A DNA stretch of 57,639 bases from Kiritimatiellia bacterium (GTDB taxonomy: Bacteria > Verrucomicrobiota > Kiritimatiellia > CAIQIC01 > Lenti-01). The stretch covers positions 1 through 57,639 of the forward strand of contig JAFXQI010000036.1 in NCBI GenBank assembly GCA_017527155.1, read 5' to 3'. Numbering within the stretch: the stretch's first letter is position 1; each line of letters begins with the position of its first letter. The position numbers and the translations under genes were made by a program. The notes under the pieces are model-generated. The model did no database searches, had not been told where the DNA came from, and saw nothing but the letters and a program-made list of their open reading frames with translations. Shown here in pieces: positions 22,782 through 27,744 of the stretch.

Positions 22782-23057
22782 TCACTTTTCACCTTTCACT
22801 GCGCCCGCAGGGCTGGCGGCGGATGCCCCCTGGGACTCCACTGCGTAATCCCGTGCCAGCTCGGCCGGACTTTCCCACCAGCGCTTGGTGGATTCGATTT
22901 CCAGCTCCCGGTAGGTCGGCGATTCGTAGAACCGCTCCAACGCGACCACCGGCGGAATCTTTTCCCGTTCCGCGATGCGTTCGCAGGTCAGCGCGATCTT
23001 GCCCGGCAGAATCGCCCGGAACGCCTTTTCGCTCCCGAAAAAGTCATTCCCCTGCAT
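22782..23057 (-). CDS. Small DUF3791-like partner protein of the DUF3990 gene
   Basis: A 91-residue protein starting MQGNDFFGSEKAFRAILPGK. The core (about 15-72) is helical, with IALTCERIAEREKIPPVVAL and RFYESPTYRELE, resembling the short third proteins often found beside DUF3990 and DUF3791. The last 16 residues (SAASPAGAVKGEK) run into repeat-like DNA and may be a recent extension. Its start overlaps the 3' end of the DUF3990 gene by 14 bp. By position it may be an antitoxin or accessory subunit; this is inference from gene order. Confidence 0.65.
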   Translation of the reverse strand: MQGNDFFGSEKAFRAILPGKIALTCERIAEREKIPPVVALERFYESPTYRELEIESTKRWWESPAELARDYAVESQGASAASPAGAVKGEK

Positions 23058-23547
23058 GGACGGCCTCGCTTCCCGCGAATTCCAGGAATTCCAGCGCCTT
23101 GGGCGTGTGGAAAAGGAATTGGTCGACCAGACGGTACGTCTTGAGTCTCCGTATCGTTTCCCCGGCATCCAGCTGCCCCGTCTCGAAAAGCGTCAGCGTG
23201 GCGAACACCCGGTCGTTCGCGACCGGACCGGAAACGATGTCGAAGCCATGGTCCGCAAACGGATCGCCGCGGTTGCGCATGACGAATTCGAGCCATGCCC
23301 GGTCCGCTGCGGGGAACACCAGGCACTTCAGTCCCGGGTGTGCGAGAATGTCGTCCGCGATGTCGTAGACGGAAACATACCCGTCCGCGGATTCGCCGCG
23401 TCTCCGCCGGAGCGCCACCCAGCGCCGGGCCTGTTCCAGGCTGGTCGTCGTATGAAAACCCGCGCCGAAGTCCAGCGTCCTGCCGGCGGCCGGCGGACGG
23501 ATTTCGGGCTGCGGAACGGCAACGGGCCCGCCGTGGTACAGCTTCAT
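23044..23547 (-). CDS. DUF3990 protein, putative ADP-ribosyltransferase-like toxin
   Basis: A 167-residue protein beginning MKLYHGGPVAVPQPEIRPP. Characteristic blocks are RTLDFGAGFHTTTSLEQARR (about 23-42), FPAADRAWLEFVMRNRGDPF, DIVSGPVANDRVF and QFLFHTPKALEFLEF near the end. These match DUF3990 (PF13151) as I remember it, a family regarded as distantly related to ADP-ribosyltransferases; the YHG and GFHTTT blocks would form the NAD pocket. ATG 23547 overlaps the stop of the upstream DUF3791 gene (ATGA), so the two are coupled. No signal peptide is present, so it acts in the cytoplasm. Toxin activity is inferred, not shown. Confidence 0.8.
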   Translation of the reverse strand: MKLYHGGPVAVPQPEIRPPAAGRTLDFGAGFHTTTSLEQARRWVALRRRRGESADGYVSVYDIADDILAHPGLKCLVFPAADRAWLEFVMRNRGDPFADHGFDIVSGPVANDRVFATLTLFETGQLDAGETIRRLKTYRLVDQFLFHTPKALEFLEFAGSEAVHAGE

Positions 23548-23759
23548 GCCCCCTCCTGGGCGGCGATGTAGTCGTCGATGGCCGGAAGAATCCATCCGAA
23601 CCCCTGCGTGTGCAACGCCTCGTAATTCCGTTCCAGGTAATCCACCACCCCGAACCGCGTGAACCGTTCCATCGCATCCCGCCCCGAAATGGAACCGCGT
23701 TCCGCGTACATTTCGATGCAAAAGGAAATGAATTCGAGTAGCCTGCCCGTTTCGTTCAT
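23544..23759 (-). CDS. DUF3791 family protein (predicted partner/antitoxin)
   Basis: A 71-residue helical protein: LLEFISFCIEMYAERGSIS, then DAMERFTRFGVVDYLERNYE and ALHTQGFGWILPAIDDYIA. This is the usual DUF3791 pattern (YxxxHxxG-type middle, acidic C-terminus). It is the first gene of a three-gene minus-strand cassette (DUF3791, DUF3990, third small gene) with overlapping stops and starts. A neutralising role for the DUF3990 protein is inferred from the recurrent pairing of these families. Confidence 0.78.
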   Translation of the reverse strand: MNETGRLLEFISFCIEMYAERGSISGRDAMERFTRFGVVDYLERNYEALHTQGFGWILPAIDDYIAAQEGA

Positions 23760-23876
23760 GCTTCCACTCTACCATCCCGTGGCGTTTCCGCACGCCTTTT
23801 CGTGCCAAGCCCCCCTTTCACTCGCAATCCCCCCTGTTCCCCCACTTCCCGCCCGCAGATGGAAGAACTCGCCGGA

Positions 23877-24013
23877 GCCGCGGAGCGCTTGGCGGACAAT
23901 TTGCACAAAAGGACAAAAAGAAAACAAAAGAGTCGGCTGGAGTGCGGGAGGAAGGTCAACATTGAACCCCATGCAACCCGCTCTGCGGCCATGGAAAGGC
24001 GGGAGGGAAGCGG
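23877..24013 (+). repeat. Interspersed repeat R7, copy 1
   Basis: It contains TTGCACAAAAGGACAAAAAG, then CGGCTGGAGTGCGGGAGGAA, GTCAACATTGAA and GGCCATGGAAAGGCGGGAGG. It shares this order with 24305-24436 and, inverted, with 26981-27060. The surrounding stretch 23760-24500 has no gene, only repeats. Confidence 0.8.
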
Positions 24014-24304: not shown

Positions 24305-24436
24305 CGCGGAGGGCTTGGAGGACGCTTTTGCACAAAAGGACAAAAAGGGAACGAACGGGACGGCTGGTGTGCGGGAGGAAGGTCAACATTGAAAACCATG
24401 AAAACTGCTCCGCGGAGATGGAAAGGCGGGACGAGG
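24305..24436 (+). repeat. Interspersed repeat R7, copy 2
   Basis: Same unit as 23877-24013, with AACATTGAAAACCATGAAAA well preserved. It ends about 70 bp before the base composition drops into the AT-richer island. Confidence 0.8.
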
Positions 24437-24663
24437 ATGCATACAAACCAAAAGTATGAACCCGCGTTCTTTTTGTCTTGCGGAATATTAACGAATGATA
24501 CATCATCGTGTGTATGAACCGAACACTTTCCAGAACAAAACGCATGGGCTATGCCCTCCCGCAACAGCGCGGGCCACTGACATTGGCTGAACACCATGCA
24601 GCGTGGAATGGCCAACAGGGGGCACATGGGGGCTATTCCCCTCGGTGGAGATACCGCACGTCG

Positions 24664-25419
24664 ATGGATTCAGATTTTCCGCTTTTATTCAAATGGGAGG
24701 ACGGGTATGCTGAATCATGCTTTTCGGAAGCAGGGAAGACTCCCGCCAATAAATCTCTGGATTTTGTGAAAATGAGCAAAGATATTCAATCGAATCCAAA
24801 TGCAACACCTGATGGGGCTTTGCGTTGCATCGATTTGTTTGCTGGTGCGGGCGGCCTTTCCGAAGGTCTTTCCGAAGCTGGATTCCACAGCCTTTTTGCC
24901 GTGGAGGTTGTGCCGACCTATGCCCAAACCTATGAGTTCAACCATCGCGGGGCACAGGTGACAACAGCGGACATACGGACGCTGGACGCCGAGGAAATCC
25001 GCAAGCGACTCGGAATCGAACGGGGGGAACTCGACCTCATCGCGGGTGGTCCTCCATGCCAAGGGTATTCAATCAATGCTCCCGTCAGGAGCGTCCTCGA
25101 CCATCGAAACCATCTGTTCAAGGAATATCTCCGTTTTGTCGATGCGTTCCAACCCCGTTGCATACTTATCGAGAACGTTCCGGGGTTGGTGTCGTTTGAA
25201 AGCGGAAGAACCTTGCACGCCATTCTCGACTCACTTGCCGAACTTGGTTATGGGGCCGACGTGCAGATTTTGGGCGCGGCTTATTACGGAGTTCCGCAAA
25301 TGCGCTGGCGGACCGTCATTATCGGCACACGGGGGAAGGAACTGCCACCCGAGTCTTTCCCGGACCCCATTTGCCACGCCCCCATTGAGCCCAATTTCTT
25401 GTCATCATTAGCGGCCTAG
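24664..25419 (+). CDS. Truncated C5-cytosine DNA methyltransferase (lacks target-recognition half)
   Basis: 251 residues from ATG 24664, which is preceded by GGTGGAG. Motif I DLFAGAGGLSEG is at 57-68, the catalytic motif IV GGPPCQGYS has its Cys at 132, motif VI ENVPG is at 170, and motif VIII QMRWR is near 212. Translation ends at FLSSLAA, soon after motif VIII. The target-recognition domain and motifs IX-X, another 120 or more residues, are therefore missing, and no frame downstream restores them. ATG 24772 is an alternative start that still keeps motif I. Codon use and GC are clearly unlike the flanking genes. It is probably an inactive remnant; a split enzyme with a distant second subunit is possible. 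Confidence 0.8.
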   Translation: MDSDFPLLFKWEDGYAESCFSEAGKTPANKSLDFVKMSKDIQSNPNATPDGALRCIDLFAGAGGLSEGLSEAGFHSLFAVEVVPTYAQTYEFNHRGAQVTTADIRTLDAEEIRKRLGIERGELDLIAGGPPCQGYSINAPVRSVLDHRNHLFKEYLRFVDAFQPRCILIENVPGLVSFESGRTLHAILDSLAELGYGADVQILGAAYYGVPQMRWRTVIIGTRGKELPPESFPDPICHAPIEPNFLSSLAA

Positions 25420-25435
25420 CATTACAAAGGATTCA

Positions 25436-25963
25436 ATGATCAACTATCAGTTTTTTCCGCGGTCCAGAGGCGTCACGCCAGAGATCAAAGCGATTATTGA
25501 TTGTTTTCGGGAAGCTGACGCCAAGAAGCCGCCACAACATCTCGTCTCTAATGCCATGCTGGAACTTGTGCGCCCGTCATTGGAAGCCATTGGCTTCCGT
25601 GTTGAGCGCGGCAAAGGCAAGGAAGACAAAATTGATGTTCCCGTGCTGTTTGGAGAAAACAACGTTATTGACAAGTCTTTTTATGCGGACGCGGTTAGTG
25701 CCGACAACAGAATTGTTGTTGAGGTTGAATCGGGAAGAGCTGTTGATAACAACCAATTCCTCAAGGATATATTCCAGGCTTCAATGATGTTTGAAGTGGA
25801 ATACCTCGTTATTGCTGTGTTGAACGAATATGTCCGAAAAAAACACAAAGGCGAATCTTCTATTCAGCATGATTTTCAAACGATAAAAACTTTTCTTGAA
25901 ACAATGTATGTTTCAACGAGACTGCAACTACCTCTAAAAGGCATTCTCCTTATTGGGTATTGA
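25436..25963 (+). CDS. Putative PD-(D/E)XK-type nuclease, restriction-system-like
   Basis: A 175-residue protein starting 17 bp after the methyltransferase stop, with AAAGGA before ATG 25436. It has an acidic pattern compatible with a PD-(D/E)XK nuclease: KIDVPVLFGENN, DKSFYADAV and IVVEVESGRAVDNNQFLKD, followed by hydrophobic strands FEVEYLVIAVLNEY and LPLKGILLIGY. Proteins of this type occur as stand-alone or restriction-associated genes, but I cannot name the family with certainty. The gene is AT-rich like its neighbours. It sits where the missing half of the methyltransferase would be expected, which suggests insertion or recombination. Confidence 0.55.
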   Translation: MINYQFFPRSRGVTPEIKAIIDCFREADAKKPPQHLVSNAMLELVRPSLEAIGFRVERGKGKEDKIDVPVLFGENNVIDKSFYADAVSADNRIVVEVESGRAVDNNQFLKDIFQASMMFEVEYLVIAVLNEYVRKKHKGESSIQHDFQTIKTFLETMYVSTRLQLPLKGILLIGY

Positions 25964-25987
25964 TAGTTTGTAAGTTGAGGCACACGT

Positions 25988-26227
25988 ATGAAAAATAAAG
26001 TTGCACTTGTGAGCATTGTTGAGAGAGACGCCGCGAATTCTTATGAGTTCACGTCAAAAGTGTTTGCCAATATCGCCAAAGCCGAGCAGTGGGTTGAGTC
26101 TCAAATCACGAAGCTCATTAAACAGTATAAACTTGATCCAGACATCTCGGTCGATGGATGGTTTGTCCAATTGGCTGGGTGGGCTCATACCGTCCAATTC
26201 GACATAGTGGAAACAACCATCTACTGA
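25988..26227 (+). CDS. Small hypothetical protein
   Basis: 79 residues from ATG 25988 (GAGGCAC upstream). Features: KVALVSIVERDAANSYEFTS, a helical middle AKAEQWVESQITKLIKQYKL, and DGWFVQLAGWAHTVQFDIVE at the end. No family is recognised. It is cytoplasmic, with no signal or membrane segment. It lies 24 bp after the putative nuclease gene and shares its low GC, so the two may form one inserted unit. The end overlaps the reading frame of the NotI-like fragment. Confidence 0.5.
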   Translation: MKNKVALVSIVERDAANSYEFTSKVFANIAKAEQWVESQITKLIKQYKLDPDISVDGWFVQLAGWAHTVQFDIVETTIY

Positions 26228-26730
26228 ATCTCAGGGAAGATGGTGCCATAGCCGTTTTCGGGAAGCAGTGGGGCGGTGAATTGCGCCTGCCGCAGCGGGA
26301 GGGCGTGGGGTCGTATTTTGTCGATTGGGTGCTTGTCCTATTGGACGGCCAGGGGCAAATCCGCGAGTTCACGGCGGTGGAAGTCCAGACCGTGGACACG
26401 ACGGGCAACTATCATGCTTCGCGCCAAGCATTGGAAGAGGGGCGCGGAATGGCGAGAAGCACGGTCGGCATCAATTGGGAGAACGTATCCAAGCGAATCA
26501 TTCCCCAACTCATCTACAAGGGACAAGTTTTACAACGCGAAGATTTGTGCAGGGCGGGGTTGTATTTTGTCTGCCCCGATCCCGTTTACGACAGGGTGTT
26601 GCGGAGGCTTGGTGGCACGGAACGGATTCCGGCATTCCCTTCACAACCTGCATCCATTCATTTCGTATCCTACGACTACGATTCAGCCACGACAGTGAAA
26701 AACGGGATAATTACTCCGCTGACGATTTGA
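26158..26730 (+). pseudogene. NotI-like restriction endonuclease, 5'-truncated catalytic fragment
   Basis: The open frame gives 190 residues. From about residue 21 it resembles the catalytic part of NotI-type endonucleases: GGELRLPQ, then FVDWVLVLLDG (D56) and FTAVEVQTVDTTGNY (E75, Q77). This is the D...E-x-Q arrangement known for NotI. NotI itself is about 380 residues with an N-terminal Cys4 iron domain; that half is absent. The first 20 residues (MVCPIGWVGSYRPIR) are read from the overlapping end of the small gene at 25988 and look artificial, so the fragment probably has no native start. Low GC like its neighbours. Its partner may have been the truncated methyltransferase at 24664. Confidence 0.65.
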
Positions 26731-27124
26731 CGAACCCTGTGCACAACAGTATATAAAGTCCAAGAAGCGTTTTCTTCAATGACTCTTCCCGAAGGAAATG
26801 TTTACCAACGTGCCATTGAAAAATCTCTTTATGAGTAAATAAACTTGCCGAGGATGCATTTTCCGCCCTCTTTCCATCCGTTTCCCCTCGGGGGGGGCGC
26901 CCACGCACCCAGTCGCGGCTCGGTTTGGGCGCGCACCTTGGAAAGAGTTGTCCCGAGTTGTCCCGAGTTGTCTCCCCCATCCGCATCCCTCCCGCTTTTC
27001 CATGTCCGCGAAGCGGTTTTCATGGTTTTCAATGCCGCCATCCCTCCCGCACTCCAGCCGCCCATTTTTGGAAAACCCGCCATCCCCCCGCGGGCCAGCG
27101 GATTGCGCGCCCCTTCCTTCGGGG
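26731..27124. repeat. Intergenic region with inverted R7 copy and GTTGTCCCGA tandem
   Basis: 26731-26850 is AT-rich with no gene. 26947-26976 is about three tandem units of GTTGTCCCGA. 26981-27060 is the R7 repeat in minus orientation (GCGGTTTTCATGGTTTTCAA, CCCTCCCGCACTCCAGCCG), facing the copies left of the island. Confidence 0.7.
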
Positions 27125-27523
27125 TCAGGGGCGCGTGCAAAACGGGCGGGCGAGGCGCGGGAATTTGCGGAGCAATTCCTTGTCCTGGGTGTAAAGCGGA
27201 CAGCCCAGGTCGCCGGCCAGCGCCACGAACTGGGCATCGTAGGCGGTGATGCCGTGTTTCCCGCACAGGGCGAACACGGACGCGGGGGAGGGATCGCGTT
27301 CGCCCGCCCGCAGGGCGTCCTCCAGGGGGCCGTACAGGCGTTCGGCCATGCCCGGCGCCAGGCGTCCGGTCCGGGTCAGGGTCGCGAAGATGTTCATGAC
27401 TTCGTACCGCCACAGCCGCGGGACCGCCCAATCGCCGTCCCGGCGGCGGAGACGGAGGGCGGCTTCCGTCGCTTCGCTCTCCAGGACGCAGGAGACGATC
27501 AGGTTGGAATCGGCGACTATCAC
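27125..27523 (-). CDS. PIN-domain toxin, VapC-like ribonuclease
   Basis: A 132-residue PIN-domain protein starting at GTG 27523, which overlaps the antitoxin stop (GTGA). The four acidic positions of the nuclease fold are visible: D5 in VIVADSNLIV, E41 in RYEVMNIF, D in ITAYDAQFVALA and D in LYTQDKELL. VapC toxins cut specific RNAs (often tRNA) when not bound by their antitoxin. Length is typical. It is encoded with the small upstream gene at 27520-27744 in the usual antitoxin-then-toxin order. Confidence 0.85.
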   Translation of the reverse strand: MIVADSNLIVSCVLESEATEAALRLRRRDGDWAVPRLWRYEVMNIFATLTRTGRLAPGMAERLYGPLEDALRAGERDPSPASVFALCGKHGITAYDAQFVALAGDLGCPLYTQDKELLRKFPRLARPFCTRP

Positions 27524-27744
27524 GGGCGGCCCTCTTTCTTCGCCGCATCGATTTCCGCCAGGCGCAGCGGGCTCCCCGCCGGGCGGACGGGGGGAGGGAA
27601 GTCCGGTCGGCTTCCCATGTGCTCCATGCACCAGTCGAAGCAATACAGGGCTTGCTGGGTCATGGATCGGCGGTTTTCCGTTGCCGTCCGCTTGAGCCAG
27701 TCGTGGACGCGTTCGGGGGCGTGGCGGATGAGGATGGCGGGCAT
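27520..27744 (-). CDS. Antitoxin of the VapBC-like pair
   Basis: A 74-residue protein starting MPAILIRHAPERVHDWLKRT, followed by ATENRRSMTQQALYCFDWCM. The short beta strand plus two helices fit a ribbon-helix-helix DNA-binding antitoxin (FitA/Arc-like). The C-terminal part (PLRLAEIDAAKKEGRP) would thread over the toxin active site. The 4-bp overlap with the PIN gene gives coupling and, by analogy, autoregulation of the operon by the complex. Confidence 0.78.
   Translation of the reverse strand: MPAILIRHAPERVHDWLKRTATENRRSMTQQALYCFDWCMEHMGSRPDFPPPVRPAGSPLRLAEIDAAKKEGRP

Follow-up and report, generated by a model that had tools for sequence, protein, structure and literature searches.

Within a 57,639-nucleotide stretch of DNA from a Kiritimatiellia bacterium (the window, meaning the whole stretch analysed), a two-gene cassette (25436–26227) occupies the place of the missing interior of a restriction-modification (RM) system. 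It lies between the remains of a C5 methyltransferase (MTase) gene and those of a NotI-like restriction endonuclease (REase) gene. The first cassette gene, nuc, encodes a predicted nuclease whose homologues recur in broken RM loci of other bacteria, and the second is a small partner gene. The tentatively preferred explanation, which is quite possible but falls short of probable, is that the cassette is a horizontally spread unit that has been fixed repeatedly by replacing the interiors of C5-MTase RM systems and that is incompatible with GGCC-type methylation. These results go beyond the preliminary description of the locus in that the partner gene is exchangeable and the targets are mostly GGCC-type C5 systems.

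Structure of the Window Locus

The MTase fragment, nuc, the 79-aa partner gene and the REase fragment all lie on the + strand at 24.8–26.84 kb (Table 1). The MTase fragment matches the Pfam DNA_methylase profile (PF00145, E 2.7e-48) only at positions 2–165 of 324 and carries motifs I–VIII, the target-recognition half and motifs IX–X being absent. Its homology to the intact 397–404-aa MTases of two related loci (L076 and L077) runs from ~24817 to ~25335, whereas the ORF extends to 25419. The NotI-like fragment matches PF12183 (E 1.4e-6, profile 97–189 of 238) and the PADLOC REase_II profile (107–229 of 301). Alignment with L076 and L077 places the beginning of REase homology at ~26228, at about residue 100 of the intact relatives; the ATG at 26158, the listed start of the REase ORF, falls within the small gene. 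In addition, an in-frame TGA (26728–26730), a lesion absent from the preliminary description, removes the REase C terminus. Past this codon the frame runs to 26838 (RTLCTTVYKVQEAF...), matching the uninterrupted homologue at locus L039 (CTTVYKVQEAF...KKCLYG). With MTase and REase both truncated, the locus is not a functional type II RM system.

Table 1. Features of the broken RM locus and its cassette (window coordinates).
Feature	Position	Strand	Basis
C5 MTase 5′ fragment	24817..25419 (homology start ~24817; ORF 24508–25419)	+	PF00145 profile 2–165 of 324; L076/L077 alignment
Left junction	25398..25435	.	MTase fragment closes ...SSLAA-stop, 16 bp 5′ of nuc
nuc, 175 aa, BamHI-fold predicted nuclease without cognate MTase	25436..25963	+	Catalytic D85, E96, E98
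Small partner gene, 79 aa, family G	25988..26227	+	Model and family clustering
NotI-like REase 3′ fragment	26228..26730	+	PF12183 profile 97–189 of 238; L076/L077 alignment
REase frame remainder beyond in-frame TGA	26731..26838	+	Sequence versus uninterrupted L039 homologue

Full-length relatives of the REase fragment were found in a search of 388 genomes of the phylum. A complete MTase gene (404 aa at L076 in genome G119; 397 aa at L077 in G066) is followed there by an overlapping, complete NotI-like REase gene. The similarity of the intact enzyme to NotI itself is remote (E 2e-5), and a GCGGCCGC specificity is therefore a guess. In intact HaeIII-, NgoPII- and NotI-type pairs alike (L151, L153, L158, L076, L077), the MTase and REase genes are adjacent and nuc is absent. 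The preliminary description had proposed an ancestral MTase/NotI-like pair whose middle was replaced by a two-gene unit, and the insert-free pairs of relatives bear this out. The MTase does end after motif VIII, the REase lacks its first ~100 residues and retains its NotI-like match in profile searches, two AT-rich genes lie between the breaks, and none of the homologues has all four genes at full length.

The low-GC island noted earlier is likewise present. GC content is 67–70% in the flanks, 57% in the MTase fragment, 55% in the REase fragment, 43% in nuc and 44% in the small gene, and these steps indicate two layers of composition, that is, an AT-rich insert within an RM locus already AT-richer than its flanks. 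Given the intact insert-free pairs and the 62 homologous loci described below, many of them similarly wrecked, the pattern in the window is not due to chance. A chimeric assembly is ruled out by like architecture in isolate genomes (Flavobacterium filum, Pedobacter psychrophilus, Halpernia humi and Kordia).

A host repeat, present in 25 copies in the genome, flanks the RM island at 23949–24004 (+), 24376–24439 (+) and 26990–27034 (−); its orientation is opposite on the two sides, and it is a possible trace of the arrival of the RM locus itself. A DUF3990 gene (23044–23808, −) and a PIN-domain/FitA-like antitoxin pair (27125–27744, −) lie one on each side of the island.

The nuc Nuclease and Its Partner Genes

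The AlphaFold2 model of nuc (pLDDT 91.8) matches BglII (Z 11.8), OkrAI (11.4), BstYI (11.2) and BamHI (10.9) over 131–148 residues, the whole domain length, the next, unrelated match having a Z of 6.5. D85, E96 and E98, which form a D...E-x-E active site like that of these enzymes, are invariant in an alignment of 46 nuc homologues. By fold, nuc belongs with the BamHI-like PD-(D/E)XK restriction endonuclease superfamily and probably works like its members, and it is presumably a sequence-specific endonuclease. However, nuc is ~30 residues shorter than the four enzymes and has no sequence relative among the solved structures of the PDB, and searches of Pfam, NCBIfam, PADLOC and PHROG with nuc gave nothing above chance level. 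The dN/dS of nuc is ~0.02–0.06. Unlike BamHI-type enzymes, the nuc proteins of the cassette clade are accompanied by a small partner protein in place of a cognate MTase.

The window partner begins 24 bp after nuc and belongs to a family (G) whose sole other member found, at L039, is 36% identical. Its model (pLDDT 90.3) has a β-β-α-α-β-β order; the best fold match in the PDB (Z 5.8) is not above background, and no further copies were found in viral contigs. Across nuc loci, the slot adjoining nuc, upstream or downstream, is filled by at least seven partner families (A at 25 loci, B at 9, C at 5, D at 3, E at 2, F at 2, and G at the window and L039) and by singletons, among which hhalign detected homology only of C with L042. 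The partner is 60–97 aa long (127 aa in one case) at ~45 loci and overlaps nuc by a few bases at most of them; ~40 of the 45 are acidic (pI 4–5), and the family A partner evolves faster than nuc. This layout, with a small, adjacent and usually overlapping partner, is that of type II toxin–antitoxin systems. The earlier suggestion of a two-gene unit that enters restriction loci is supported in that nuc homologues do recur in other broken RM loci, but nuc has no constant companion, the second slot being held by families without recognizable sequence relation. No transposase or terminal repeats that would account for the suggested hopping were found.

Association of nuc with Broken RM Systems

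A single scan of 84,980 species genomes yielded the 62 nuc loci, and 69 were examined together with further copies; many are in metagenome-assembled genomes (MAGs). MTase or REase genes lie beside nuc at 33 of the 69 loci, always co-oriented with it, and about half of the loci have no RM trace, in some cases because the contig ends. The RM references were taken from intact nuc-free HaeIII-type (L151) and NotI-type (L076, L077) pairs (threshold E < 1e-4), and some others (rumen MTase, NgoPII REase) derive from nuc loci themselves; the nuc-free references alone recover 25 of the RM-associated loci. At 31 of the 33, either the RM genes are disrupted or there is no MTase, and the two loci with intact MTases (L110, L150) both belong to a divergent branch of nuc. 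In the main, cassette clade, no intact MTase lies beside nuc, the MTase having been lost in every RM-associated member. REase matches lie within 1.5 kb of nuc at 22 loci, and the 620 kb of flanking sequence beyond contain no such match; for Vsr genes, the corresponding counts are 13 and one. Among 296 Flavobacteriales genomes, three carry a HaeIII REase and two carry nuc. Literature searches yielded no apparent description of a solitary REase inside RM genes.

The cassette resides in RM systems of the HaeIII, NgoPII and NotI types; whereas intact systems of these types lack it, the MTase and mostly also the REase are broken at nuc loci. The broken systems are mostly of the HaeIII or NgoPII type, named from the families of the REases, which are GGCC enzymes; others are NotI-like. 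The MTase of L016 matches M.HaeIII through the target-recognition domain. All 10 HaeIII-type MTases in 41 nuc-containing genomes are broken copies, and other C5 MTases are common in these genomes.

Hosts of nuc linked to RM ruins belong to Bacteroidota, Acidobacteriota, Pseudomonadota, Verrucomicrobiota and Planctomycetota. In the sample of the window's own phylum, nuc is present in one of 388 genomes, that of the window itself. Phage or plasmid origin was rejected (50,697 phage records contained no match, plasmids a single partial one and IMG/VR two divergent ones), as was a multi-copy mobile element, most of 39 genomes having just one copy of nuc. A Y1/RAYT gene adjoins nuc only at L035–L037, and the cassette is therefore not classed as an insertion sequence or transposon; at these three acidobacterial loci, the REP-type Y1 (IS200-like) transposase gene lies at +573 from nuc, with REP-like sequence between them. 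The nuc proteins of a Caenarcaniphilales MAG (L023) and a Cytophagales MAG (L024) are near-identical, reflecting either recent cross-phylum transfer or bin contamination.

In the divergent branch, nuc at L110 (genome G628) lies between an intact C5 MTase gene and MzaB, overlapping each by a few bases, with Vsr upstream, and on two IMG/VR contigs divergent nuc genes lie close to intact C5 MTases. These contexts suggest an older role of nuc as the REase partner of C5 MTases. The L110 operon is of the type of the Mza defence systems (PADLOC MzaB); in contrast, the cassette clade has no Mza genes alongside.

The RM fragments abut the cassette within ~25 bp, and both M–R and R–M gene orders are found. 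In MTase (M) and REase (R) residue numbers, the breakpoints are M71/R5 (L010), M137/R47 (L018), M171/M219 (L027), M246/R181 (L028), M256/R3 (L033), M78/R289 (L035), M189/R216 (L040), R126/M74 (L016), M118/R281 (L062), ~M180/R183 (window) and M117/R255 (L039), the MTase being broken at every one of these loci. The REase ORF is full length only at L025, L027 and L030, and that of L010 lacks its first few codons. At L027 and L030 (Pedobacter psychrophilus), the full HaeIII REase ORF downstream of the broken HaeIII MTase is under purifying selection. One common target site is improbable, because the deleted intervals do not overlap (L027, M171–M219; L033, M256–R3). Some junctions are nevertheless shared by diverged lineages (left, L027/L030/L063; right, L025/L027/L030 and L010/L033). 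The cassettes of L027, L030 and L063 are equally diverged despite their common left junction, which reflects either a preferred site, homologous recombination that spreads cassettes with their junctions, or halves that still function.

Truncated MTases end in ...AA-stop (LAA, NAA, IAA) at the left edges of the window, L027, L030, L033, L040 and L063; these ends resemble an ssrA-like degradation tag and may be due to chance or shared descent. A Flavo-1 RNA (RF01705) directly follows nuc at the right edge of the cassette at L018, L027 and L030 and, by eye, at L010 and L033; L030 has another copy elsewhere.

On the nuc tree, the RM type changes at least 7–8 times and the partner family at least 10 times, and invasion is therefore recurrent. 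For example, the HaeIII-type locus L033, with partner A, is sister to the NgoPII-type locus L034, with partner C, and a single clade of the window and L039, both NotI-type loci, is rejected (p-AU 0.0003). The MTase and REase fragments have dN/dS values of ~0.02–0.1 with synonymous sites near saturation, and the MTase fragment of L025 is 99% identical to that of the intact pair L153 (pS 0.48). The simplest reading would be that each RM system worked until lately; the left junction common to L027, L030 and L063 and the MTase C half, which evolves faster than in intact pairs, count against this.

Possible Origins of the Cassette

In the preferred explanation, nuc would be an active nuclease, incompatible with any functional MTase of the GGCC type; the simplest reason would be that it cuts the methylated site in the manner of a Type IV enzyme. 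The only survivors would then be recombinants in which the insertion itself took out the MTase and either deleted or uncoupled the REase. The small partner would inhibit or license nuc, keeping the nuclease in check, and the retained 5′ RM fragment would supply promoter and translation. The host has a GGCC observed/expected ratio of 0.73 (3044 sites in 300 kb), and relatives free of nuc matches have ratios of 0.77–0.82; GGCC avoidance as the mark of an active GGCC cutter was rejected, the host avoiding GGCC no more than its relatives do. With about one GGCC per 100 bp and no special avoidance, nuc is probably not a free cutter of unmethylated GGCC. It is probably not a general m5C cutter either, since nuc-containing genomes have many other C5 MTases, and the ten HaeIII-type ones are all broken. 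The Type IV reading is consistent with both the broken MTases and the abundant host GGCC sites.

Methyl-dependent nucleases that are incompatible with MTases include McrBC and PcaRCII (PMC2614495, PMC8989522). The cassette would share with these systems the logic that nuclease and methyltransferase cannot coexist. However, it has a BamHI fold, its methyl-dependence is a proposal, and the conflict would be resolved by replacement of the RM locus, whereas that of McrBC and PcaRCII is resolved by cell death or promoter silencing (PMC2614495, PMC8989522). Against the preferred explanation stand the roughly half of the 69 loci that lack an RM trace and the full-length HaeIII REase ORFs of L025, L027 and L030, which should be lethal without methylation unless silent. 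Nor does it account for the identical junction of L027, L030 and L063. The absence of an intact HaeIII-type MTase beside nuc is weak evidence, as such MTases are rare anyway (~1%). NotI-like systems, moreover, need not recognize GGCC, nor need the rumen-group MTase. A stronger form, which we consider doubtful, is that the cassette preys on RM loci in a gene-drive-like manner, nuc attacking cells with a GGCC MTase so that the survivors are those with a replaced locus, under interchangeable control proteins.

It is unlikely that nuc is a restriction enzyme turned toxin that cuts unmethylated sites, with the acidic partner as an antidote in place of the MTase and RM loci as suitable landing places, where a promoter is supplied and loss is tolerated. 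The small, mostly acidic partner that adjoins nuc, and its faster evolution and many families, as in toxin–inhibitor pairs, are accounted for as well by this as by incompatibility, but the frequent GGCC-type targets and the always-broken MTase are left without explanation. Homing-like spread, in which nuc would cleave uninterrupted RM loci and homology in the flanking MTase and REase genes would let the cassette be copied in, replacing the middle, is distinctly improbable. It would fit the junctions shared by diverged lineages, the co-orientation with RM genes, and RM flanks that were under purifying selection until lately. However, the non-overlapping deleted intervals speak against a shared cut site, the targets belong to several RM families, and nuc is rare (2/296 genomes). 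Furthermore, a homing endonuclease keeps its host gene functional through an intron or intein, whereas the host MTase here is truncated and partly missing.

Ordinary decay, with nuc and the small gene as old members of RM operons whose adjacent M and R genes have rotted, is very improbable. The intact C5 MTase/MzaB operon of L110 and the two IMG/VR contigs described above are in its favour, but the five intact pairs have M–R adjacency without nuc, the fragments abut the cassette closely in both gene orders, and the nuc phylogeny disagrees with RM type. Least probable is that the cassette of the L027/L030 subgroup lies between the halves of a working split MTase, as an added component of a living RM system. 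At both loci the N (~176 aa) and C (~140 aa) halves remain open and the REase is complete, each of them with low dN/dS; the split falls between motif VIII and the target-recognition domain; and a search of genome G408 with the MTase N half found no other C5 MTase that could protect against the intact HaeIII REase ORF. However, the two halves together fall 47 residues short, the C half evolves more rapidly than its counterpart in intact pairs, and neither the window nor most of the other loci could have such an arrangement.

The nuc family is absent from the Pfam, NCBIfam, PADLOC and PHROG libraries searched, and its association with the remnants of a single functional class of RM system is far stronger than chance would give; nuc itself is predicted to be a new, small restriction enzyme that comes with its own natural protein partners. 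The idea of an epigenetic conflict becomes testable with two genes and M.HaeIII. If the incompatibility with GGCC-type methylation is true, these loci would clearly document, at the genome level, how defence systems compete for one another's loci and take them over.
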